Origin: Pseudalkalibacillus berkeleyi
GTDB lineage: Bacteria > Bacillota > Bacilli > Bacillales > Fictibacillaceae
DNA length: 64,000 bases
Assembly: GCF_021608225.1 (NCBI RefSeq)
Contig: NZ_JAKIJS010000001.1
Coordinates: forward strand, 2,604,001-2,668,000
Direction: 5' to 3'
In this document: piece after piece, positions 30,287 to 43,105 of the stretch
Position numbering within the stretch: position 1 is the first letter of the stretch
Layout of the letters: the number at the start of each line of letters is the position of its first letter
The notes under the pieces: generated by a model
Seen by the model: the letters and a program-made list of their open reading frames with translations, nothing else
Told to the model about the DNA's origin: nothing
Database searches by the model: none
Translations under genes and position numbers: made by a program

Positions 30287-30294
30287 TGCGTTAA

Positions 30295-30310
30295 TCAAAT
30301 GTTTGTTTGA
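30295..30310. repeat. Operator-like palindrome, copy 1 (TCAAATGTTTGTTTGA)
   Basis: TCAAATGTTTGTTTGA, an imperfect inverted repeat 9 nt after the ABC ATPase stop. Related to copies at 30357-30372 and 34798-34817. TetR-type operators look like this; no such regulator is encoded in the window. Confidence 0.4.
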
Positions 30311-30356
30311 AATTAAAGCCTTATTGGCCAAGGGCTCGCAGTACTTGTGCAGTCAA

Positions 30357-30372
30357 TCAAACGTTTGTTTGA
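30357..30372. repeat. Operator-like palindrome, copy 2 (TCAAACGTTTGTTTGA)
   Basis: TCAAACGTTTGTTTGA contains the perfect 10-nt palindrome CAAACGTTTG and lies 62 nt after copy 1 in the same orientation. Confidence 0.45.
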
Positions 30373-30436
30373 CACCTTCTGTTCTTTTTCATAGAAAAAA
30401 TAGTTGAAAGTGAAATAAGCACAAAAGAGATCATAT

Positions 30437-33334: not shown

Positions 33335-33365
33335 GTGGGTCGAGGGGACAGGTACCTCGACCCAT
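33335..33365 (+). repeat. REP-like palindrome 1
   Basis: Arms TGGGTCGAGG / CCTCGACCCA around GGACAGGTA. It starts 5 nt after the stop of DUF3846-like paralog 2. Orientation is called plus for copies reading GGGACAGGT on the plus strand. Confidence 0.85.
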
Positions 33366-33371
33366 TATAGA

Positions 33372-33397
33372 AGAGCTGCCTATTAGGTAGCTTTTTT
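33372..33397 (+). terminator. Terminator after DUF3846-like paralog 2 and REP 1
   Basis: AGCTGCCT and AGGTAGCT with a 3-nt loop, followed by TTTTTT. Confidence 0.75.
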
Positions 33398-33492
33398 AAT
33401 TGTTTAAAAGAATGGAATATACATTTCAATCTGTCGATAAAATTAATAGAGCGGTACTGAAAAGACTAAAGAGGATTTGGGAGAGAGATCTT

Positions 33493-33696
33493 ATGCTTAA
33501 ATTATTTATATACTTACTAACATCCTACCTATTTGTGCAATTCTTCTTCAGCATAGGTTATGCAGTAGCTTTTATGGTTAAAGAAACAGACCCAAATAAA
33601 AAAATTGATAAGATATTTAAACATTTTGTTATTGCTATATTATGTGGTGCATTATCCTTATATCTTTTAATCGATTTTGTCCAGATTGGCGTATAA
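33493..33696 (+). CDS. Small hypothetical membrane protein
   Basis: 67 residues from ATG 33493, chosen because GGGAGAGAG lies just upstream; longer starts at 33412 or 33400 lack a ribosome site and overlap a terminator. Two hydrophobic segments (LFIYLLTSYLFVQFFFSIGYAVAFMV and FVIAILCGALSLYLLIDFVQIGV) flank a short polar loop with ETDPNKKIDKIFK. Not recognised. It converges on the metallo-hydrolase gene, sharing a terminator. Confidence 0.5.
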   Translation: MLKLFIYLLTSYLFVQFFFSIGYAVAFMVKETDPNKKIDKIFKHFVIAILCGALSLYLLIDFVQIGV

Positions 33697-33709
33697 GATG
33701 AATAAATGT

Positions 33710-33744
33710 AAAAAACGCCACGAACAGGATTCTTTAGGCGTTTT
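33710..33744. terminator. Bidirectional terminator between small membrane protein and metallo-hydrolase genes
   Basis: AAAAACGCC and GGCGTTTTG pair around an 18-nt loop between converging genes ending at 33696 and 33753. Confidence 0.65.
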
Positions 33745-33752
33745 GCTTACGT

Positions 33753-34712
33753 TTACTGTTGGGTTCGTAGTTTCCTGTAAACCCATACTCCACCACTCAG
33801 TTCTTTCGTGACTTTTCCATTGGCTTCTAAATAATCCAAATGACCGATTATTTCTGACATAACGAGTGAAAACTGCTCATAGTACCTATCCTTATAAAAT
33901 GTAAGGGCAATATCACTCGCGGTTCGCGGTTCTTGCTCAAGCTCACTTTCTATTTTACTTGCCTTCCTACTAATGCCTCTTAACCTCTTTTCAACTAGCA
34001 TCCTATGGTCATAGATGATATCCCCATGACCTGGATACAAAACGTTAGCATGAATAGAAGCACATTTCTTAAGTGATTGCTCATGTTCTAAAACAGTTTT
34101 TATTCGATTTCCACTTTCATCAGGCTCTACTAGAGCATTGCTCGAGATATGATTAAGAAGAAGATCGCCTCCAAAGATCACCTTTTGACCATGATCATAA
34201 TAAATCATGTGATCTGGAGAATGACCAGGTGTTTCTAATGGTTCCAGCGAAGTGAAAGTTTGCTTACCTATAGGAATGACATCTGATTTGAGCCTCTTCT
34301 CCTCATGCGATGCCATAGCCGCTCCCAACTTCTTGATTTGAACATCCCCTTCTACCCCACAACCCATCTCTTTATATAGTTTGTTGAAGAACTCCATTCT
34401 CATTTCAAAAAAATCACGATCCCGCTTCAGACGACAAATCGCCTTTTCAGGCACATATACCGGAATATTGCGACTGGAAACAATCCGATCAACTAATCCT
34501 ACATGGTCTTCATGATTATGGGTAATGATAATTTGATCTAGATCTTCTAAACTAAAGCCATGATGATGCAATGCCTCGTTTAAATAATCCCAACACTTTG
34601 ATGAATTCACACCAGCATCTATTAACGATAATGATCCCTCATCTTTCATTATATAAAAATTAAATGACTTCAAACTCGAACGCGTCGGTACGATAATCGG
34701 AAAAACTTCCAT
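33753..34712 (-). CDS. MBL-fold metallo-hydrolase
   Basis: 319 residues. Metallo-beta-lactamase fold: LIDAGVN near 32, the metal motif THNHEDHVG (HxHxDH), ETPGHSPDHMIYY (third ligand His), GGDLLL with the bridging Asp, and YPGHG with the last His. A C-terminal winged-helix-like part (TASDIALTFYKDRYYEQFSLVMSEIIGHLDYLEANGKV) is typical of the large hydroxyacylglutathione hydrolase-like clade. Cytosolic; the substrate cannot be told from the sequence. ATG follows ATGGAGTG. Confidence 0.9.
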   Translation of the reverse strand: MEVFPIIVPTRSSLKSFNFYIMKDEGSLSLIDAGVNSSKCWDYLNEALHHHGFSLEDLDQIIITHNHEDHVGLVDRIVSSRNIPVYVPEKAICRLKRDRDFFEMRMEFFNKLYKEMGCGVEGDVQIKKLGAAMASHEEKRLKSDVIPIGKQTFTSLEPLETPGHSPDHMIYYDHGQKVIFGGDLLLNHISSNALVEPDESGNRIKTVLEHEQSLKKCASIHANVLYPGHGDIIYDHRMLVEKRLRGISRKASKIESELEQEPRTASDIALTFYKDRYYEQFSLVMSEIIGHLDYLEANGKVTKELSGGVWVYRKLRTQQ

Positions 34713-34735
34713 TAAAATTCACTCCATAATTCTTG

Positions 34736-34766
34736 GTGGGTCGAAGGGACAGGTACCTCGACCCAC
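34736..34766 (+). repeat. REP-like palindrome 2
   Basis: Arms GTGGGTCG / CGACCCAC around AAGGGACAGGTACCT. It lies 23 nt upstream of the metallo-hydrolase start, the only copy not at a gene 3' end, apart from the upstream RAYT copy. Confidence 0.85.
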
Positions 34767-34797
34767 TTAATAACAACACGACAGTTTTCGCAGCTTA

Positions 34798-34817
34798 TCA
34801 AACAAGCGTTTGTTTGA
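34798..34817. repeat. Operator-like palindrome, copy 3
   Basis: TCAAACAAGCGTTTGTTTGA, nine of ten base pairs in a 20-nt inverted repeat. The same core GTTTGTTTGA occurs at 30301-30310 and 30363-30372. It may also fold with the terminator DNA next door. Confidence 0.5.
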
Positions 34818-34845
34818 CCCACTAACTTCATGATACACAAGGAAA

Positions 34846-34877
34846 AACCCCTCAATCAAACGATTGATTGAGGGGTT
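34846..34877 (-). terminator. Terminator after the vanZ-like gene
   Basis: AACCCCTCAATCAA and TTGATTGAGGGGTT pair around ACGA (14-bp stem); AAAAA on the left gives the U-run for the minus strand. Confidence 0.85.
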
Positions 34878-34932
34878 GTCGAATCATGTTCTGTAGTCGA
34901 ATGTCCCCTTTGATCTCCAGCTATAAATAGTT

Positions 34933-35382
34933 TTATATGTTCGTGTTTGGATGTCTAATTTTATGAACGAAAGTATACAAACTAACGCCAACAATTGCCC
35001 CAGAACTATCTATTAGCACATCATTTATTTGTGCACCTCGACCAGGAACGAATAGCTGATGAACTTCATCTGAAGAAGCGTACAAAACACAGATCAGTAA
35101 GGCGAATCCAATCTCCTTTTTACGAATCCGATTCTTTCTTAAAGCATTCAATACGAGTAAACCGAGAATGAAATAAGCAAAGAAATGAGCGTTCTTTCTA
35201 ACAATGTGATTAAAGGCTTCCAGGTCAAAATCTTGCACAGGAGTGACACCTTCAATGAATTGAACAATCATTTCTGTTAATCCAGTACTCATAGCATTAG
35301 AGGCTGTTGCTGGTTGGTGTGATAGGTAGAAGATTAATGACATCCAAAGAAACACAAACGACCAGGAAAGTATTTTGTTCAT
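34933..35382 (-). CDS. VanZ family membrane protein
   Basis: 149 residues, four hydrophobic segments. VanZ family signatures: FLYSHQPATAS-like loop (FYLSHQPATASN), RKNAHFFAYFILG, and YASSDEVHQLFVPGRGAQINDVLIDSSGAIVG. VanZ proteins are small membrane proteins; the founding member raises teicoplanin resistance by an unclear mechanism, but most Bacillus relatives have no assigned job. ATG follows AAAAGGACC. It is a single-gene unit in the REP-rich stretch. Confidence 0.9.
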   Translation of the reverse strand: MNKILSWSFVFLWMSLIFYLSHQPATASNAMSTGLTEMIVQFIEGVTPVQDFDLEAFNHIVRKNAHFFAYFILGLLVLNALRKNRIRKKEIGFALLICVLYASSDEVHQLFVPGRGAQINDVLIDSSGAIVGVSLYTFVHKIRHPNTNI

Positions 35383-35535
35383 TTATTTGGTCCTTTTCTC
35401 TTCATATTATTGTCTCGTTCATTATATCAGTAAGCACCCAATAAAGGATAGAGAGCTAACATGAATTGAAAGCTCCCCCTAGTATCCACTTCATGAATGC
35501 TCGTTGTTGATGAATATAAAGGAACCTACCGTAAA

Positions 35536-35565
35536 TGGGTCAAGGGACCTGTCCCCCCGACCCAC
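35536..35565 (-). repeat. REP-like palindrome 3, contains the RAYT stop codon
   Basis: Minus-strand reading: GTGGGTCG, then GGGGGACAGGTCCCT, then TGACCCA. It encodes the last residues of the transposase (SGGQVP) and its TGA stop at 35540-35542. Confidence 0.88.
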
Positions 35566-36331
35566 TCCTTCGAATTCGCTGAATCACGCTTTTCGATATT
35601 CCACTCACCCGAGATAGTTGCCCATTCGTGACTCCCTCCAATTCCTTCAACTCAGCCAATACTGCGTTCCTATCCACCCTGTCCATTTGCTGCAATGAAC
35701 TCACATTCTTAACACCCAACTCGCTCAAATATTTTCTAACTACATGATCATCCACTCTTACATTCACATATGAATCATCCATACATTGATCATCATTTGA
35801 TTGTTTCATGTGCTCAATAAACAGCTTCATCGATTCCTCACGATTTACCGAATAAAAACCAATTGCTTTATCGACATCTACTATATTCGTCTCATGAAGA
35901 TACTCCCCCATACTCGTCCACTCACATTCAAATACATCTTTCTCGATGCCAGCCTTCACGGGGTTCTGGTGGATATATCGAAGTACAGTTAAAAAATAAG
36001 CAGAATCCTCTACACATTCACTTTTATACCTAGCCTGGAAAAGGTGCCCGCACCGATCATACTTCATGTTGTACCAATAAACGTAGCTAGAGCTGATCCG
36101 CTTAATGGTATCTGAAATAGGCTCCTCCATCTCTTTCAACAGCAAATGAATATGGTTATTCATCAAACAATAGCTATATAGCTTAAAGTGACAAATGTCT
36201 TTATATTTTTTGAGCGTTTTGACAAACCTCTTCTTATCCTCTGCATCCTCAAAAATGGTTTGCCTATTAATCCCTCTTAAAATAACATGATAAATTCCGC
36301 TACTACTCTTTCGTCTGGCCCTTCTTGGCAT
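35540..36331 (-). mobile_element. REP-associated tyrosine transposase (RAYT) gene, Y1/HUH family
   Basis: 263 residues. It opens with MPRRARRKSSSGIYHVILRGINRQTIFEDAED, a RAYT/IS200-like start. The HUH motif is NNHIHLLLKE near residue 58, and a Tyr-rich helix (SSYVYWYNMKYDRCGHLFQARYKSE) holds the candidate nucleophile; RYIHQNPVKAGI follows, as in RAYTs. The C-terminal helix-turn-helix (TNGQLSRVSGISKSVIQRIRR) is common in Firmicute members. RAYTs cut and join single-stranded REP palindromes. REP copies at 35536-35565 and 36538-36568 flank the gene as direct repeats in the gene's orientation. The frame is intact; ATG follows GAGGTGATAT. Confidence 0.93.
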
Positions 36332-36537
36332 TCATATATCACCTCAAAACTGTACATAGTTAACTTCTTGAATAAGGGGGTTCTTTCGATAAAATGGAGC
36401 TTTAAAATTTGATGGGTTTTTGATGTGAAAGGTTATTAATGTGGATTGAATGTAGGGAAAAGTTAAAGTTGAAAAGATTCGTGGTATAACTATGTATTCT
36501 ACAAAAAGAAAAAAATCCTTTAAAAAGTTTCGTGTAA

Positions 36538-36568
36538 GTGGGTCGAGGGACCTGTCCCCCTGACCCAG
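36538..36568 (-). repeat. REP-like palindrome 4, upstream end of the RAYT unit
   Basis: Minus-strand reading: CTGGGTCA, GGGGGACAGGTCCCT, CGACCCAC. It lies 207 nt before the RAYT start codon. With REP 3 it bounds a candidate unit of about 1.03 kb. The 205 nt between REP and start are AT-rich with no ORF. Confidence 0.88.
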
Positions 36569-36633
36569 TAATAATATGGAGCAATTAGGCAAAGATATTT
36601 ATTAAAACCATGTATATAAAGGAGCGATGGATT

Positions 36634-37092
36634 TTGAATATCAGACATATCATTGCTATTTCTTCTAAGTTCTTAATTGCATTCTGTTTATGTTTAGCAA
36701 CTTTAACACCTTTCTTTGGCGTTTCCATAATCAATGCACTTTGGGTGTCTATATTGATTACAGCAATCGGCTATCCGATTGGAGATTTATATGTTTTGAA
36801 GAAGCTCGGTAATTTCTTTGCGACAGCGATTGATTTTGGATTTGTTTTCATCGTCCTATGGCTATTTGCTGAACCTATTGTAGATACGCCATACAATCGG
36901 TTGCTTGGAGCTGGCATTGCATCTTTAGTAATTGCTGTTTCCGAATTCGTCTATCACATGTTTATCGAAATTACCAATCCATTACATCCTTCGAAAGCCG
37001 ATATCAAGGGACATGGATATGCAGTTGAAGTTGGAGAGGAATTTGCACCAGCGGGTGATAAGTTGATTAATGAAAGCGATGAGGATAAATAA
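36634..37092 (+). CDS. DUF2512 family membrane protein (YndM-like)
   Basis: 152 residues from TTG 36634, nine bases after AAGGAG; an upstream ATG (36610) overlaps that site and is unlikely. Four hydrophobic segments; the order FLIAFCLCLATLTPFF, GYPIGDLYVLKKLGNFFATAIDFGFVF and LGAGIASLVIAVSEFVYHMFIE is diagnostic of DUF2512. The C-terminus is cytosolic and acidic. Found throughout Bacillus, where it is often linked to sporulation; its function is unknown. Confidence 0.88.
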   Translation: MNIRHIIAISSKFLIAFCLCLATLTPFFGVSIINALWVSILITAIGYPIGDLYVLKKLGNFFATAIDFGFVFIVLWLFAEPIVDTPYNRLLGAGIASLVIAVSEFVYHMFIEITNPLHPSKADIKGHGYAVEVGEEFAPAGDKLINESDEDK

Positions 37093-37138
37093 CAGCCCCC
37101 TCCCTCCATACGTTAGTGACTCTTACCATCTTCTCATC

Positions 37139-37169
37139 GTGGGTCGAGGGACCTGTCCCCACGACCCAC
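37139..37169 (-). repeat. REP-like palindrome 5
   Basis: Minus-strand reading: GTGGGTCG, TGGGGACAGGTCCCT, CGACCCAC. It starts 46 nt after the DUF2512 stop. Confidence 0.85.
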
Positions 37170-37255
37170 TTTAAAGTTTTTTGGTTTGTTCCGATATAAT
37201 AAAGGTTGGGACGAACAGTTTTTTACATAGAGAACAATTTGTGAGGGGATTATGC

Positions 37256-37492
37256 ATGGATAAAGTGTTACAAGAAAGGTTGTTATCTTCTGAAGATAGG
37301 GTTATTTGTAAACTTCTGAAGATCTCAAAGGCTAAAATGTATGAAATGATGGACTCGGGGGAATTTCTACCTTATGCAATTGAAGTCTACAATCAATTAG
37401 ATCAATCAAAGCAATCATCGTGGGCAAGAAAACTATTGAAGGAAAATAAAGAAAAACAAGTAGGAAGCACATTACATAGAATTGAAGTTTAA
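37256..37492 (+). CDS. Small hypothetical cytosolic protein
   Basis: 78 residues from ATG 37256, after GAGGGGATT; the upstream extension to 37181 lacks a ribosome site. Predicted mostly helical and hydrophilic (LLSSEDRVICKLLKISKAKMYEMMDSGEFLPYAIEVYNQLDQSKQSSWARKLLKENK). The CKLLKISKAKMYEMMDSG segment could be a helix-turn-helix with a MerR/excisionase-like lilt, but this is weak. Not recognised. A hairpin-like CCACGGAAAAACTTTTCCGTGG after it (37531-37552) may be its terminator. Confidence 0.5.
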   Translation: MDKVLQERLLSSEDRVICKLLKISKAKMYEMMDSGEFLPYAIEVYNQLDQSKQSSWARKLLKENKEKQVGSTLHRIEV

Positions 37493-37530
37493 TTTAAAAC
37501 TTGAGGGTAAAAGCACTCTATTCAATAATC

Positions 37531-37556
37531 CACGGAAAAACTTTTCCGTGGATTTC
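37531..37556 (+). terminator. Possible terminator after the small helical protein gene
   Basis: CCACGGAAAA and TTTTCCGTGG form a nearly perfect 10-bp inverted repeat with a 2-nt centre; the following sequence ATTTCCC is a poor U-run, so function is uncertain. Confidence 0.45.
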
Positions 37557-37637
37557 CCATTCCATTTTACAGGTAATTACAATTTGATGTCGAATTTACT
37601 TTAGGTATATATATAAATTGGAAGGAATGGTAAATGG

Positions 37638-38969
37638 ATGGTGTTGAGTAAACTACGGTTTGGAATATTGATGATGTTAGTACTTTTAATCGCGGTATCC
37701 CCGCTTTCACCCACTGTTAATGCACAGTCGGTAGAAGTAACCAAGCTTGACTATGTTGCGTTAGGTGATTCTTTAGCTGCTGGAGTTAACCATCAAGATC
37801 AATTAGGGATGGGGTACAGTGATTTTCTTGCTTTGCAAATGAAACAGACATTGGTTCTCGGTGATTACTCTAAGCAATATGCATATCCTGGTTACACGTC
37901 GGCAGAAGTCTTAGCTGACCTCAAAAATAATGTATTTAAACCTAACATGGATGGAAGTCCAGACACAGATGGCATTCAAAAACAAATAATGGAAGCCGAA
38001 GTTGTCACCTTGAATGCTGGAGCAAATGATCTTTTGGCTGTCATAGACATTGATCCAAAAACTGGTGTCGTATCATATGATGAAGTTGCATTTGCAAAAG
38101 CGATTTCACAAGTCGGAGTAAACATCGGCTCAACAGTCGGTCTTATCAAAACCTTGAATCCAAATGCAGATGTATATGTGATGGGGTATTATAACTCATT
38201 CCCCTATCTACCAGACACGGAACAACCGAAGCTATTAGCAGCTTTAGACAATTTGAACAAATCGATTCAAACAGCTGCAGTTTCAACTGGTGCAACATAC
38301 GTTCCGACAGCCGATGCATTTAATCCAAACGGGAAAACCTACTTGCCAAATCCAAAAAACATCCATCCAAATGAAGCGGGTTATCTCGTCCTAGCAAATG
38401 CCTTCTGGCGTGCGATGGAAGTAAAGGATTCACAAGATTTCTCTGATGTAAATGATCAAATGTATTCTTACGATGCCATTCAAACCCTTGTCCAAAAAGG
38501 AATCATTATTGGGTATGGTAATGGTAAATTCGGTCCAGAAGATTCCGTTCGACGGGATCATGCAGCACAAATGTTAACGAGAAGTATCGTATACAATCCT
38601 AATGTACCACCAGCGTCATTTAGTGATTTGTTACCTACCAATCCAGCGTTTGCAGAGATATCTGTCCTCTCGCATTACAAAGTATTAAATGGTTACCATA
38701 ATGGCACTTTCCGCCCTACTATAGAGTTGAACCGTGCAGAGATGGCAAAAATCATCGTGACAGCATTCAATTTGAAAGGAACCGGAAAACAATACTTCGA
38801 TGACAATACGGTTGAAGAATACTGGGCATATGATTACATTAACATTTTAGCTGAAAATGGCATTACAATTGGAGTAGGTAACAATCGCTATCATCCTGAA
38901 TATCAGGTACAACGTGAAGAATTCGCTACCTTTATCTACCGAGCTCTGCAAAAGCAAACGACAAACTAA
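37638..38969 (+). CDS. Secreted SGNH/GDSL esterase with three SLH repeats
   Basis: 443 residues. Signal peptide about 1-29 (ends VNAQ). The SGNH domain (about 37-258) has YVALGDSLAAG with Ser45, NAGANDLL with Gly128/Asn130, and NIHPNEAGYL with His243. The Asp normally three residues before that His is Lys/Asn here (PNPKNIHPN), so the triad may be a dyad. SLH repeats fill about 262-443 (VRRDHAAQML, LNRAEMAKII, VQREEFATFI). It probably de-esterifies wall or capsule glycans at the surface. ATG 37638 follows GGAAGGA. It is the only SLH gene outside the 5.6-17.6 kb cluster. Confidence 0.92.
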   Translation: MVLSKLRFGILMMLVLLIAVSPLSPTVNAQSVEVTKLDYVALGDSLAAGVNHQDQLGMGYSDFLALQMKQTLVLGDYSKQYAYPGYTSAEVLADLKNNVFKPNMDGSPDTDGIQKQIMEAEVVTLNAGANDLLAVIDIDPKTGVVSYDEVAFAKAISQVGVNIGSTVGLIKTLNPNADVYVMGYYNSFPYLPDTEQPKLLAALDNLNKSIQTAAVSTGATYVPTADAFNPNGKTYLPNPKNIHPNEAGYLVLANAFWRAMEVKDSQDFSDVNDQMYSYDAIQTLVQKGIIIGYGNGKFGPEDSVRRDHAAQMLTRSIVYNPNVPPASFSDLLPTNPAFAEISVLSHYKVLNGYHNGTFRPTIELNRAEMAKIIVTAFNLKGTGKQYFDDNTVEEYWAYDYINILAENGITIGVGNNRYHPEYQVQREEFATFIYRALQKQTTN

Positions 38970-38983
38970 ACGGGTCCTTCTGT

Positions 38984-39025
38984 AGCTGATAAACCGGGAG
39001 CCTTTCCGATTTATCAGCTTTTTTA
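38984..39025 (+). terminator. Terminator after the SLH esterase gene
   Basis: AGCTGATAAACCGG pairs with CCGATTTATCAGCT (one mismatch), then TTTTTT. Confidence 0.85.
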
Positions 39026-39049
39026 TCATAAGAAAATGGAGGAAAAAAA

Positions 39050-39640
39050 TTGACGAAACGAAAGAAAATACTTATCCCGACAATTATTTTAATTACAACA
39101 TTTATAATACTAATTAATTGGTTTTACCCTTACTCAGCTCTGAGTATGACTAAATCTATACCGTTTACACCTAATTCTATTGTAGTCGAGCATTATAAAG
39201 AAGAGCTAACCACTTTTAAGAAAAAGTATGAAGAACAAGTTCAATCTGACGACGACGTAAACGTAAACCGTACGACTGACAGGATCCAATATCTGCTCCA
39301 AATGTTTGAGCAAGATTGGCTATTAAAAAAAGAATCGACAAAAATGACCAAATCAAAATTAGAAACCATTCACTTTGAGGTGAAAGAAGCAAAACAAATT
39401 TTAATTGAATTGGCATTTAAAGAATCTTACGATCAAGACTCCAAAACGTTACTCAGAACACTCTTAGAAAGTACATTGTACATAGAAGAAAACATCCTTT
39501 ACATCATTAATAGTGATAATCACTCAAGAGCAGAAAGCAAGAACCTACTCGGAAATCTCCATATGAGTTTCGTTGCTAATTTCGATCACCTTACAACCTT
39601 CTATGATCGATATTTAGAACATGATCAAAATAACAATTAG
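39050..39640 (+). CDS. Hypothetical membrane-anchored helical protein
   Basis: 196 residues from TTG 39050, which follows GGAGG by seven bases. A basic N-terminus precedes one membrane segment (ILIPTIILITTFIILINWFYPY), then an extracytoplasmic, mostly helical region with heptad-like charge (YKEELTTFKKKYEEQVQSDDDV...). No motif or family recognised. The broken gene at 39668 follows 27 nt later and is also a short anchored protein, so both may belong to one transcript. Confidence 0.6.
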   Translation: MTKRKKILIPTIILITTFIILINWFYPYSALSMTKSIPFTPNSIVVEHYKEELTTFKKKYEEQVQSDDDVNVNRTTDRIQYLLQMFEQDWLLKKESTKMTKSKLETIHFEVKEAKQILIELAFKESYDQDSKTLLRTLLESTLYIEENILYIINSDNHSRAESKNLLGNLHMSFVANFDHLTTFYDRYLEHDQNNN

Positions 39641-39667
39641 CATAAGAAAGGATATGAACAGATAAAT

Positions 39668-40119
39668 ATGAAATTAAAGATTATCCTCATCATTACTTTA
39701 CTTTTCTCTAACTTAATAACCGCATACTTATGGTTGAACGATAAAGATGAAGTTGCCTTTATTAATGTCTTACTAGAAGGTGAGTCTGAACATTGGACAA
39801 TTGAGGATTACCACGTAATCTATTCCCCTGATTTGATGAGTAAAGGAGATGGAACACTTACATATAAAAATGAAGAAAAAATGTATGGATACTAGACTAC
39901 ACACTTGAATTGTATGATCATAACGGTAGAAATTATAGTACAGTCACAGGATCTACGTTTCGGATGAAAGGTACGATTGGTGCTATTGGCTCAAAAGTGG
40001 CAGGTGGTAAAAAGATTACCGTACCGACTATTAATGACGTAGAAGCATCTTATGCACTCGTTAGATGGGGTAAAAAGGAAGAGCGAATAGATCTGAAATT
40101 GAAGAATTCACGAAAGTAA
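39668..40119 (+). pseudogene. Frameshifted small anchored protein gene
   Basis: The first frame (39668-39895, 75 codons) has a signal-anchor (IILIITLLFSNLITAYLWL) and a domain start, and ends ...GTLTYKNEEKMYGY. A one-base backward shift in the A6 run (39876-39881) opens a frame that reads NVWILDYTLELYDHNGRNYSTVTGST and continues to 40119, where it ends with KLKNSRK. Together they give about 150 residues. The joined text reads like one beta-rich domain. This is either a real single-base loss, programmed slippage, or an assembly error at the A-run. The family is not recognised. Confidence 0.6.
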
Positions 40120-40136
40120 TGAGTGGCCAACTACTA

Positions 40137-40176
40137 AAAAAAAATGACCCCAGAACGAATTTGGGGTCAATCTTTG
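40137..40176. terminator. Terminator between the frameshifted gene and a small anchored protein gene
   Basis: TGACCCCA and TGGGGTCA pair around a 9-nt loop, with A-run left and TCTTT right; likely works for both converging genes. Confidence 0.7.
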
Positions 40177-40199
40177 GGCTTTGAGTTTTCAGTTTAAGT

Positions 40200-40667
40200 T
40201 TAATCATAATACCCTGTATTATTGGAAGCAAAATACCAGTTTTCTTCCCCTTCTATTTTTTCAAAGTGGCAACTATCCAAATAACTAAATTCTCTATTGG
40301 TTGGTGGCTCTCCTGTAGAGGTATACAAAAACCCTTCAATTAATCCAGGACCAAAAACAGGTGAATCAACCCATTGGAAAAATACAAAGTGCCTTTCTTC
40401 ACTATACATCCTTGCATGAAGAATATCGTCAACATTTGCTTTACTAAATTGTGGAGGTGTATGGTAAAATGCAAAACCACCTTCACCCTCCTTCTTAATT
40501 TCCCCTTCATTCAACATCCTGACGACCTCTTCACGATCCTCTTTATACAATTTAAAATTAGCAGTTTCATTGTTCGGGTTTAAATAAACACCGTATAAAA
40601 ACAGAGAGACAATCACAAAAATAGAAAGAATGGATAGAATGATTGCGGTACGTTTCTTCAAATACAT
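40200..40667 (-). CDS. Hypothetical small membrane-anchored protein
   Basis: 155 residues. N-terminal membrane segment (ILSILSIFVIVSLFLYGVYL) with a positive start (MYLKKRT), then an outside domain of about 125 residues with mixed character (FAFYHTPPQFSKANVDDILHARMYSEERHFVFFQWVDSPVFGPGLIEGFLYTS). One Cys and no lipobox. Unrecognised. Start ATG 40667 follows GGGGGTAT; a TTG two codons later (40661) is equally placed. Confidence 0.55.
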   Translation of the reverse strand: MYLKKRTAIILSILSIFVIVSLFLYGVYLNPNNETANFKLYKEDREEVVRMLNEGEIKKEGEGGFAFYHTPPQFSKANVDDILHARMYSEERHFVFFQWVDSPVFGPGLIEGFLYTSTGEPPTNREFSYLDSCHFEKIEGEENWYFASNNTGYYD

Positions 40668-40729
40668 ATACCCCCACTATATATTTTTCCTTCAACTTAC
40701 ATTTAGTTCAACTATAGTGTTCGTCAAAA

Positions 40730-40759
40730 TGGGTCGAGGGACCTGTCCCTTCGACCCAC
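40730..40759 (-). repeat. REP-like palindrome 6, abutting the LtaS-like stop codon
   Basis: Minus-strand reading: GTGGGTCG, AAGGGACAGGTCCCT, CGACCCA. It begins with the base after the TAA stop at 40760-40762. Confidence 0.85.
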
Positions 40760-42721
40760 TTATTTAAATTTCTTAATCAGGTTTCCGAAAATGATGTCAT
40801 CTGAGATTCTGTATTGCTGTTGGGCTTCTTCGTAGATTGAGCTGCACTCCTTGATGTCGATCTTCTTGCCAGTTTCAAACTCATAGCATGTTCCGTTACT
40901 GAAGATGCCATCCTTAGCTTGTTGGTACCATACCTTGCCATTCGTGACACTTCCTGTTCTCAGTGCAACCAAACGATTTCCTTCCAGGAATAGGTCCTTA
41001 CCCATAAAATATTTATCGTTCGTTTCATGCCCTAACATATGCAGAAGTGTTGGGGCTAAATGAAGCTGTCCTCCAGTCTTCTCATACGTACCTGCTAGCT
41101 GATCTTCAGGTAAGTGGATGACAAGTGGAACCTGATCGTATTCTTTATATAATTCAAATTCATTCTTATCACCGGTAACGAATGTTTCTGAATTCGTCCC
41201 CTGTTCCATCACTTTTGCGTCATGATCACCATAGAACACGACTACGGAGTTCTCCCACAAACCTTTTTGTTTCAGTTCCTCGACAAAGACTTTAATCGAC
41301 TGATCCACATAATGCACCGAGTGAAGATAGTTTTCAAGAAGTTCGTTTTCCACATTGTCTAAATTAAGTACCTTATGTTTTTTTGGCATAGGATACGGAT
41401 GATGGCTCGTTAACGAAATCATGAATGAATAAAAGGGCTTGTCTGCTGGCATCATATCAACCGTTTGACGGAAAAAGTCTTCATCTGAAGCGCCCCATCC
41501 AATCGTCTCCTCAGGCTGATAATCTTCCTTCGAGTAAAATTGATCGTATTCTAGTGAACTGTACATGGAATTCCGGTTCCAAAAGCTCCCTTTAAATGCA
41601 TGATGGGCTGTAGCTTGATATCCATCATCCTTTAGCACTTTTGAAATACTGTCATATTCATTCGCACTGTATCGAATAAAGGCTGAACCAGTAGCTAAAG
41701 GATATAGTGATGTATTCACAAGTAGGTCCGCATCAGACGTCCTTCCTTGTGCAGCTTGATGATAAAAGTTTGGAAAATACGCACTATCTTTAATCAGCTC
41801 ATTTAAATAAGGCGTGATCTCTTGTCCTTCTACTTCACGATTGATGACGAAATCCTGAATGGCTTCCAGCTGTACAACAATCAGATTTTTCCCTTCTGCT
41901 ATACCAAATGTTTCTGGACTCGTTTTCCCGGTATTGGTTGAGAACCACTCGTCAATTTCATTTGCCCGTTCTTTTGAGACTCTTTTTTTATGTAGAACAT
42001 AGTCTTCGAAATTTCGCTTCATATCAAAGAAATGATAGCCGTAAATGCCCGTAAACTTATAAATACTTTCACTTGCGATCATCTTCTCAAGAATCTTCTT
42101 CCCACCATATTGGTAGAAGACGTGTAAAGGCTGCTGGACACAGAACCAGCCAATCACGAAGGCGAGAATCCCAGCAACAATTGCCCGCTTTTTCTCAGCA
42201 AACCACTTCTTCTTCCATATGAAAATGAAGAGAGGAATCGTTAGGAATACATCCACCCAAAATAAGATGTCTTTCAACTGTATAAGGCTGATGATGCTGT
42301 CTGTCAGATTTCCGACTTGCCCTGCTTGTAAAAGTAAAGCAACGGATATGAAGCCATCGAAGTATCGGTAATGGATGACATCGGCAAACAAGACAAATGA
42401 AACCAATGCATTTAAAATAATTAAAATATAAATTCGTTTCCGCCTTGTAAAGAAGAGTGTCCAAAACGAAAGTAATAATATGTATCCTAGACTAATCATC
42501 AACAATCCACTACGGATGGTGTTAAAGCTACCTCCACCAAAGATAAATGCAAATAGGTTCTTTATGTACCCCCATACGCCATACTCATAAAAGACTGTAC
42601 CTGTAAGATCGGCTAACAGATACGTCTTGAACATCAGCAATAGGACGAATAAGAAATAGTCAGAGTAAAAAAACAACCTTTCTCTGAACCAATTTATTTT
42701 AAAAATCCATCTATCTCTCAT
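40760..42721 (-). CDS. LTA synthase family protein (sulfatase-fold phosphoglycerol transferase)
   Basis: 653 residues. About five membrane segments within 18-200, then a linker helix region and an extracellular sulfatase domain. The nucleophile motif QGRTSDAD places Thr328, with upstream metal ligand Glu286 (VVQLEAIQD); YGDHDAKV supplies the later metal ligands. LtaS-type enzymes polymerise or prime polyglycerol phosphate lipoteichoic acid using phosphatidylglycerol. Complete set of catalytic residues. Preceded on its strand by a decayed gene region. Whether it is the primary LtaS or a YqgS/YfnI/YvgJ-type paralog cannot be decided by eye. Confidence 0.93.
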   Translation of the reverse strand: MRDRWIFKINWFRERLFFYSDYFLFVLLLMFKTYLLADLTGTVFYEYGVWGYIKNLFAFIFGGGSFNTIRSGLLMISLGYILLLSFWTLFFTRRKRIYILIILNALVSFVLFADVIHYRYFDGFISVALLLQAGQVGNLTDSIISLIQLKDILFWVDVFLTIPLFIFIWKKKWFAEKKRAIVAGILAFVIGWFCVQQPLHVFYQYGGKKILEKMIASESIYKFTGIYGYHFFDMKRNFEDYVLHKKRVSKERANEIDEWFSTNTGKTSPETFGIAEGKNLIVVQLEAIQDFVINREVEGQEITPYLNELIKDSAYFPNFYHQAAQGRTSDADLLVNTSLYPLATGSAFIRYSANEYDSISKVLKDDGYQATAHHAFKGSFWNRNSMYSSLEYDQFYSKEDYQPEETIGWGASDEDFFRQTVDMMPADKPFYSFMISLTSHHPYPMPKKHKVLNLDNVENELLENYLHSVHYVDQSIKVFVEELKQKGLWENSVVVFYGDHDAKVMEQGTNSETFVTGDKNEFELYKEYDQVPLVIHLPEDQLAGTYEKTGGQLHLAPTLLHMLGHETNDKYFMGKDLFLEGNRLVALRTGSVTNGKVWYQQAKDGIFSNGTCYEFETGKKIDIKECSSIYEEAQQQYRISDDIIFGNLIKKFK

Positions 42722-42856
42722 GAACCCACGTTCCCCTTATGTTAAAATTTACAAACTCTTAGTAAACTTAGCATAAAATTTATAATAGTAAAACCATACA
42801 AAAAGCCTACAATCCAAATAGACCAAGATTCATAGGGATAGTTCTCTTGGTACGAC

Positions 42857-42879
42857 GACAAGGTACCTGTCCCCTTGTC
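42857..42879 (-). repeat. REP-like palindrome 7 (divergent copy)
   Basis: Minus-strand reading: GACAAGG, GGACAGGTA, CCTTGTC. The central GGGGACAGGTACC is kept while the outer arms differ (GGACAAGG instead of GTGGGTCG). It lies 3 nt after the stop of the ComM-like remnant. Confidence 0.65.
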
Positions 42880-42881
42880 CC

Positions 42882-43105
42882 TTAGTTCTGCTTCAATGAG
42901 AGGATTGAATTGTTCGTCGTTTTCACTTCTCGCCTCAATGTTAATGCCTCCCACAAATCGGCATCGTCAATAGATGAAAACTCGTTTAAATCAGCGATCG
43001 TCCTTACTAACTGTATAAGCTTAATCTGCACTCGATTATTTAGCCCGACTATTACAATTCCTCTAGGTATTAAGAAAGATGGCCCCTGAACAATTCCGAA
43101 GTCAT
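42882..43105 (-). pseudogene. Remnant of a Mg-chelatase/ComM (YifB)-type AAA protein, C-terminal fragment
   Basis: One minus-strand frame, open from about 43105 to the TAA at 42882-42884, reads LNNRVQIKLIQLVRTIADLN then EFSSIDDADLWEALTLRRE. The V(A/R)RTIADL...I...L.EA...R pattern is the C-terminal Mg_chelatase_C helix bundle of ComM/YifB and related ATPases. There is no start codon with a ribosome site and no ATPase domain upstream, where only a flippase gene and about 340 nt of noncoding DNA lie. I infer a decayed gene end. A GTG-started ORF in another frame (42742-42954) is discounted. Confidence 0.55.

Follow-up and report, generated by a model that had tools for sequence, protein, structure and literature searches.

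In RAYT/REP systems the transposase co-evolves with its hairpins, which in four proteobacteria accumulate near the rayt gene; according to the accessible text of the two sources, these hairpins carry a GTAG guide at their foot and are usually dispersed genome-wide, and the transposases are without a C-terminal helix-turn-helix (HTH) of the kind described below (Nunvar 2010, PMC2817692; Corneloup 2021, PMC8266576). In TIRYT/TIRtron loci a Y1 transposase is likewise flanked by repeats, although these TIRs are long inverted repeats that are mostly unrelated to REPs; as far as the accessible part of the description goes, many of them carry GGGGWSAS, and their families are moderately abundant, some being self-complementary and some dimeric or grouped (Di Nocera 2013, PMC3733652). 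TnpAY1 transposases of subclass 2.1 combine an HUH/Y1 core with a C-terminal HTH-like extension, subclass 2.1.2 being taxonomically patchy, and the survey that defines them reports, in its accessible text, that automatic and manual searches gave no REP-like sequences near 2.1 genes (Quentin 2018, PMC6006769). The spread of REP-like hairpins is unsolved, and the HTH-bearing Y1 group had been reported without such hairpins. In this study, we analysed a 64,000-nt stretch of Pseudalkalibacillus berkeleyi (NZ_JAKIJS010000001.1, 2,604,001-2,668,000; hereafter the window), in which one HUH/Y1 transposase gene stands among seven short hairpins with an apical GGGGACAGGT. We consider it probable that this is a TIRtron-like locus, consisting of a single-copy TIRYT/subclass 2.1-type transposase and of moderate-copy, non-autonomous hairpins that it most likely mobilises.

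The hairpins and the transposase of the window

At no more than one mismatch, GGGGACAGGT occurs at seven sites in the window, all within 33344-42874 and none elsewhere, and none of 100 dinucleotide shuffles of the window reached seven sites, the largest count being four. The initial annotation, which had reported seven palindromes around one intact tyrosine transposase gene, none in the other 54 kb and two core variants, is borne out on these points at this mismatch limit (GGTACC in three hairpins, GGTCCC in four). The hairpins are about 31 nt long, extend over 33335-42883 and lie at gene ends or between genes (Table 1). Their layout is an outer stem GTGGGWCnn/nnGWCCCAC with one extra G and an apical GGGGACAGGTMCC, and each of them, folded alone as DNA, gave -5.9 to -12.6 kcal/mol (z -2.4 to -5.0). 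Two further statements of the annotation hold in part: GGGTC/GACCC arms are indeed present in six hairpins, but exact GTGGGTCG together with exact CGACCCAC in two only (34736, 37139), and the palindromes are not wholly non-coding, because hairpin 3 overlaps the transposase stop codon while the others are intergenic or abut a gene end.

Table 1. Positions in the window of the hairpins, the transposase and the sulfatase-domain gene
Feature	Position	Strand	Description
Hairpin 1	33335..33365	+	GGGTC arms, GGTACC core; begins 4 nt past the stop of a 119-aa open reading frame
Hairpin 2	34736..34766	+	GGGTC arms, GGTACC core; upstream of metallo-hydrolase gene
Hairpin 3	35535..35565	-	GGGTC arms, GGTCCC core; covers transposase stop codon and last codons
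HUH/Y1 transposase gene	35540..36331	-	263 codons; C-terminal HTH (predicted); H59-x-H61, Y118, S79; Pfam Y1_Tnp 2.8e-16
Codon of transposase residue S79	36092..36094	-	in predicted helix 71-89; coordinates computed from the reading frame
Hairpin 4	36538..36568	-	GGGTC arms, GGTCCC core; 206 bp upstream of transposase start
Hairpin 5	37139..37169	-	GGGTC arms, GGTCCC core; 46 bp past DUF2512 gene
Hairpin 6	40729..40759	-	GGGTC arms, GGTCCC core; abuts stop of sulfatase-domain gene
Sulfatase-domain gene	40760-42721		bracketed by hairpins 6 and 7
Hairpin 7	42853..42883	-	GGGAC arms, 3' arm damaged, GGTACC core; upstream of sulfatase-domain gene

The window transposase is the one match to Y1_Tnp in the 3.5-Mb genome at E<=0.001, and H59, H61 and Y118 (numbered without the initiator Met) are invariant. 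Its structure model has a mean predicted local distance difference test score of 90.9, and the closest solved fold is 4er8, TnpAREP in complex with a REP hairpin; Y118 aligns with Y115, which we take to be the catalytic residue of E. coli TnpAREP. The helices predicted after the catalytic core (217-228, 235-242 and 246-251) would form an HTH-like bundle, and HTH-family sequence profiles gave weak matches to the C-terminus, below the cut-off. The IS200 model scored far below its own cut-off (16, cut-off 55), and the single Y1 copy in the genome does not agree with the multi-copy gene-plus-ends unit of IS200/IS605.

In its features the locus is closer to TIRYT/TIRtron and TnpAY1 subclass 2.1 than to the GTAG type of RAYT/REP, the subclass 2.1 assignment being based on features and not on published subclass profiles. 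GGGGACAG, present in both flanking copies of the window transposase, fits GGGGWSAS, and with subclass 2.1 the protein shares the HUH/Y1 core and the predicted C-terminal extension. Compared with TIRtrons as described in the accessible part of Di Nocera 2013 (PMC3733652), the loci examined here have short Bacillota hairpins, local clusters and two main core classes that exclude each other. It is improbable, in our view, that the locus is instead a classic RAYT/REP system of subclass 2.2 or 2.5 with a GTAG or GTGG foot and a double-foot REP. Such a system would share the HUH/Y1 fold, and among 18 aligned copies from the P. berkeleyi genome nine start with GTGG, nine end with CCAC and four do both, which recalls the double-foot REPs of subclass 2.4; the bulged stem, moreover, is as in E. 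coli REPs. However, GTGG, where present, sits within the hairpin stem, the foot columns are weakly conserved over the 225 A-type sites introduced below (G 44%, T 42%, G 81%, G 71%), positions outside the hairpin stay at or below 0.8 bit in the 18 copies, and the 22 places found in 3.5 Mb are clustered and not dispersed genome-wide. In addition, the transposase bears the predicted HTH extension and scores below the cut-off of NCBIfam REP_Tyr_transpos (66.7, cut-off 80). Because of the predicted C-terminal HTH, the lack of a conserved foot tetranucleotide and the invariant apical core, we do not place the locus among GTAG-type RAYT/REP systems; of the earlier description as a Gram-positive REP/RAYT system, the tie between a Y1 tyrosine transposase and multi-copy hairpins is retained. 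No description of GGGGACAGGT hairpins in Bacillota was found among the open-licence papers listed. They are a real repeat family and the Bacillota version of something already known, with a testable recognition hypothesis.

Core types, transposase lineages and residue 79

Relatives of the transposase were taken from a contig scan, of which the best 80 of at least 579 loci were used (78 titled or classed Bacillota; L107 and L130 from Thermodesulfobacteriota bins), and from related genomes (17 loci). Among these 97 loci, of which one is a duplicate, GGGACAGGT lay within 500 bp of the transposase at 40 (A-type) and GGGACGGTT at 34 (G-type), neither was found at 23 and both at none. A main repeat core within 500 bp at 74/97 loci differs, provided that these loci belong to subclass 2.1, from what the accessible text of the Quentin 2018 survey (PMC6006769) reports. 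Variants of the core (for example GGGGACAGGC, GGGACAGGA, GGGGACGGGG, GGGGACAGGG, GGGGACGGAT or GGGGACAGTT) were seen by eye in the flanks of 16 of the 23 loci with neither core. When cores were counted by distance at the 80 contig loci (20 with neither core within 500 bp), the 34 A-type loci had GGGACAGGT 61 times and GGGACGGTT 0 times within 500 bp, and the 26 G-type loci had GGGACGGTT 58 times and GGGACAGGT 0 times; these counts are partly by construction, because the loci had been sorted by the core within 500 bp. Independent of this sorting are the absence of any locus with both cores, the farther bins and the agreement with the transposase tree. Between 0.5 and 10 kb, A-type loci have 0.23-0.36 GGGACAGGT per kb vs 0-0.025 GGGACGGTT, and at G-type loci GGGACGGTT drops with distance from 0.30 to 0.02 per kb. 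On the tree, which has 95 rows after removal of the duplicate L035 and of L137 (27 X), two core labels need 5 changes on 72 rows, and three labels need 18 changes vs a shuffled mean of 43.7. Both in Alkaliphilus serpentinus and in one Syntrophomonas bin, each type is represented by at least one transposase with the matching core, and this speaks against an effect of host or composition. As to an inverted arrangement of the flanking repeats, a + copy upstream together with a - copy downstream within 500 bp was present at 16/34 A loci and at 14/21 G loci, 5 further G loci being cut by contig ends.

This association bears on the reading of the hairpins as regulatory sites or RNA elements (operators, terminators or mRNA stabilisers) to which the transposase would be incidental. 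All seven window hairpins are located at gene ends or in intergenic DNA and one of them scores terminator-like, as such a reading would have it; however, the core accompanies the transposase and changes along with the transposase lineage, and the terminator-like hairpin and the sulfatase gene next to it are on opposite strands, so that we regard this reading as very unlikely. A terminator role was rejected, as the strand is wrong and the number of terminator-like sites in the region (8, with 6.5 expected) is close to chance.

The stem is supported across sites. In the same pairing register, 157 of the 225 A sites, which were not selected for pairing, and 47 of 92 G sites folded better than 95% of 50 single-base shuffles, and the stem pairs 4-28, 5-27 and 6-26 were paired in 75-79% of the A sites (shuffled maximum 60-64%). 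In the alignment of the 18 own copies, all but 1 of 500 shuffles lay below the observed covariation score and number of paired cells.

When the alignment columns of the transposases were scanned, residue 79 was found to split the core types completely in the 72 labelled rows (A-type: S 32, C 6, N 1; G-type: G 32, A 1). In this discovery set, core base 9 was G in all 37 cases with S/C/N and T or A in all 29 with G/A; 66 of the 95 rows were scorable, 61 with a plain NGG, GGT or GGA core and five with doubtful calls (AAG 2, CTG 2, AAA 1), of which the CTG calls may represent the complement of the core. The rule was written down before the flanks of a hold-out were fetched. The hold-out comprised 129 entries (29 loci and 100 further places of the same list, the rest of which, many of them fragments, was left out); 9 were dropped as at least 95% identical to the training set, and collapsing at 90% left 115, of which 92 could be scored. 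Here, S/C/N went with G9 in only 14/27 cases, G/A with T/A9 in 53/56, and the 9 loci with other residues all had T9. The pre-registered S/C/N rule thus failed in the hold-out, because Asn behaves like Gly (1/12 with G). A post hoc rule that sets S/C against all other residues fits 86 of the 92 hold-out loci (S/C 13/15). Of the 158 rows of a joint tree, 151 conform to it, and core and residue change 9 times each; an independent-pairs comparison on these rows (6 starred) gave about 2.9 concordant, 0 contrary and 3.1 without difference, which is not significant. This support is suggestive but not proof. Outside the main cores, L097 and L103 (Ser79), which show GGGGACTGCCCC and GGGGACTGACCCC, and L110 (Ala79) with GGGACAGGA are against the rule.

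S79 is located in the predicted helix 71-89, and its alignment partner in 4er8 is K81, not K82; K81 adjoins K82 in E. coli TnpAREP. K82, in helix alpha-3, contacts one base in the unpaired bulge of the REP, according to the accessible text of Corneloup 2021 (PMC8266576).

Clustering of the copies and their possible spread

A genome-wide census, as suggested in the initial annotation, gave 12 places within 3 mismatches of the 29-base pattern (reversed control 0), 17 exact GGGACAGGTNCC (reversed control 1) and 22 covariance-model places at E<0.05; the model had been built from the 18 own copies, so that 18 of the 22 hits are training copies and the E-values are rough. Seven of these places belong to the window and five to contig C2 (59-75 kb); the others are four at C1 2681-2687 kb, just beyond the window end, two at 33-34 kb and single ones at 255, 355, 434 and 2733 kb. 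The view that copies are confined to the surroundings of the transposase is not supported, as other clusters exist in the same genome. The five C2 copies occupy 16 kb (59208-74815), though no Y1 gene other than that of the window was found in the genome.

The arms of the 18 copies differ with distance: of those with GGGTC arms, 10 are no more than 50 kb from the transposase and 1 is far, and of those with GGGAC arms, 1 is near and 5 are far (Fisher p=0.005; 0.0025 with one further GGGAC copy on C2), in a test that excluded one mixed copy, used a distance cut set after the data had been seen and had three further model-found copies outside its scoring. Most simply, the GGGAC copies would be an older set that is dispersed and the GGGTC copies a younger one that is local. 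Exact GGGACAGGTNCC is absent genome-wide from G003 and G004, the congeners that match the DNA of the locus most closely. Of the earlier suggestion of active or recent spread, recent local spread is thus plausible; that the hairpins are mobile is an inference.

Among 100 related genomes, P. berkeleyi included, at least 7 cores are present in 8/9 genomes with a transposase homologue of at least 50% identity vs 4/91 others (Fisher 2e-8; the 50% threshold was chosen after the counts had been seen). In G065, the one genome of the former group without 7 cores, the core found at the transposase is GGGACAGGA. The four others with at least 7 cores are G050, G051, G094, which retains a 57-aa C-terminal transposase remnant, and G063, with two distant long homologues. 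Copies cluster within 25 kb of a long-type transposase in 5/5 genomes tested (p 1e-3 to 6e-11): 5/15 in P. berkeleyi (0.21 expected), 11/30 in G069 (0.72), 6/15 in G043 (0.18), 3/22 in G061 (0.22) and 12/55 in G060 (1.22), one of whose two transposases is only 44% identical. The test used copies away from the gene ends, counted copies on other contigs as far and left out G071, G097, G096 and G065; some copies form doublets and are therefore non-independent. As REP accumulation near rayt genes has been reported in four proteobacteria, namely three marine gammaproteobacteria and Thauera, in the accessible text of Nunvar 2010 (PMC2817692), this clustering is an extension and not new in kind.

The cluster in the window could alternatively mark a horizontally acquired or rearranged block that brought its hairpins along, rather than result from local hopping. 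This would be consistent with the gene order in G003, where the homologues of the 119-aa gene and the GDSL gene are about 0.1 kb apart; in the window, metallo-hydrolase, VanZ, transposase and DUF2512 genes and a 103-aa open reading frame intervene, hairpins 1 and 5 lie near the ends of this block, and genes are shuffled among relatives. However, hairpins 6 and 7 flank the sulfatase gene, which has homologues in G003 (83% amino acid identity) and G004 (82%), both of them genomes without an exact core, and clustering recurs in all five genomes, and therefore we consider arrival in a block unlikely. The GDSL-gene homologues are 82% and 72% identical, respectively, and in G004 the orientation of the sulfatase-domain gene relative to the GDSL gene is reversed.

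The hairpins themselves, their strong, lineage-specific association with the transposase, some arm covariation, the clustering and the absence of exact cores from the closest-matching congeners are supported directly. In the mechanism that we propose for mobilisation by the transposase, a hairpin would fold at the replication fork or in another single-stranded stretch, and the transposase would bind it via the apical GGGGACAGGT, partly by helix 71-89 with residue 79 and its neighbours. Y118 would then cut and rejoin single strands near the hairpin foot, and copies would re-insert mostly within some kilobases of existing copies, building clusters at the gene and at older outposts. More tentatively, and with more doubt than confidence, we put forward the joint proposal that residue 79, together with its neighbours, may read base 9 of GGGGACNGX, Ser/Cys selecting G and small or other residues T/A, that helix 71-89 may correspond to the helix with which E. 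coli TnpAREP contacts the REP, and that fork-range re-insertion may build the local clusters. If true, few substitutions would be needed for a transposase to change from one hairpin family to another across Bacillota. With its short hairpins, its several core types and a candidate residue for specificity, such a Bacillota family would offer a compact in vitro system, and its core-switching lineages would allow tests of how single-strand transposases recognise and move hairpins.

Several observations weigh against mobilisation of the hairpins by the transposase. The two hairpins flanking the window transposase are in direct and not inverted orientation. No insertion was seen at base resolution, with one genome per species and closest relatives that have diverged between genes, and no clean empty sites could be shown in G003 or G004, where the intergenic DNA is too diverged. 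The outer pair 1-31 and pair 9-23 show no excess over shuffles, pairs changed on both sides are not above shuffles in the 18 own copies (203/500 as high), and the covariation counts are inflated by the relatedness of the copies. G050 (14 cores) and G051 (8) have short transposases only and no long-type one, which comes part of the way to repeats in genomes without the transposase, a finding that the initial annotation had named as contrary to its view. Hairpin clusters without a transposase exist in P. berkeleyi (C2, 59-75 kb) and in G069 (1265-1277 kb), which might suggest that nearness to existing copies matters as much as nearness to the gene; in such orphan clusters, tblastn of 12 rows vs 16 stretches gave no transposase relics, but known genes or chance hits. 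Finally, same-way neighbours, as predicted by strand-preserving hopping, are in no clear excess in a 60-locus set (24:15, 13:10, 7:5).

A same-strand excess of 28:10 at 2-5 kb in the genome list (p=0.005, other bins not significant) was considered as a sign of such hopping and not accepted; the 60-locus set gave 13:10 in its place, and apparent one-way runs in G071 are halves of inverted doublets. Isolated copies more than 300 bp from the gene show an inward-pointing bias (83:42, p=3e-4; by locus 22:9, p=0.03), which is exploratory, as several bins were examined and copies are non-independent. At L187 (G071:C15:58001-78000), inverted, REPIN-like hairpin doublets, mostly about 60-100 bp apart, mostly face one way across 20 kb, and several G071 contigs end about 100 bp from a doublet-type copy. 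Five hairpins at L184 (G043:C2:342472-345655) have an additional conserved 3' tail of about 20 nt past the stem, so that the mobile unit may be longer there. In G050 and G051 (L188, L189), GGGACAGGTNCC is on one strand in 13/14 and 8/8 cases (contigs as given), and the few G050 copies read look one-sided, with the 3' arm only.

The partly syntenic region of G003 (C1:1126000-1142000, L171) carries a different Y1 gene (43-44% identity) flanked by GGGACGGTTC repeats, and thus the same region holds different family members in sister species. As for the neighbouring genes, the sulfatase-domain gene is perhaps lipoteichoic-acid-synthase-like. Four 21-nt TCAATCAAACGTTTGTTTGAC-like palindromes are located at 30291-30373 and 34798-34872 of the window, and two of the four precede the metallo-hydrolase gene. 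The metallo-hydrolase homologue in G003 has similar palindromes upstream, and they are perhaps a regulator's operator.

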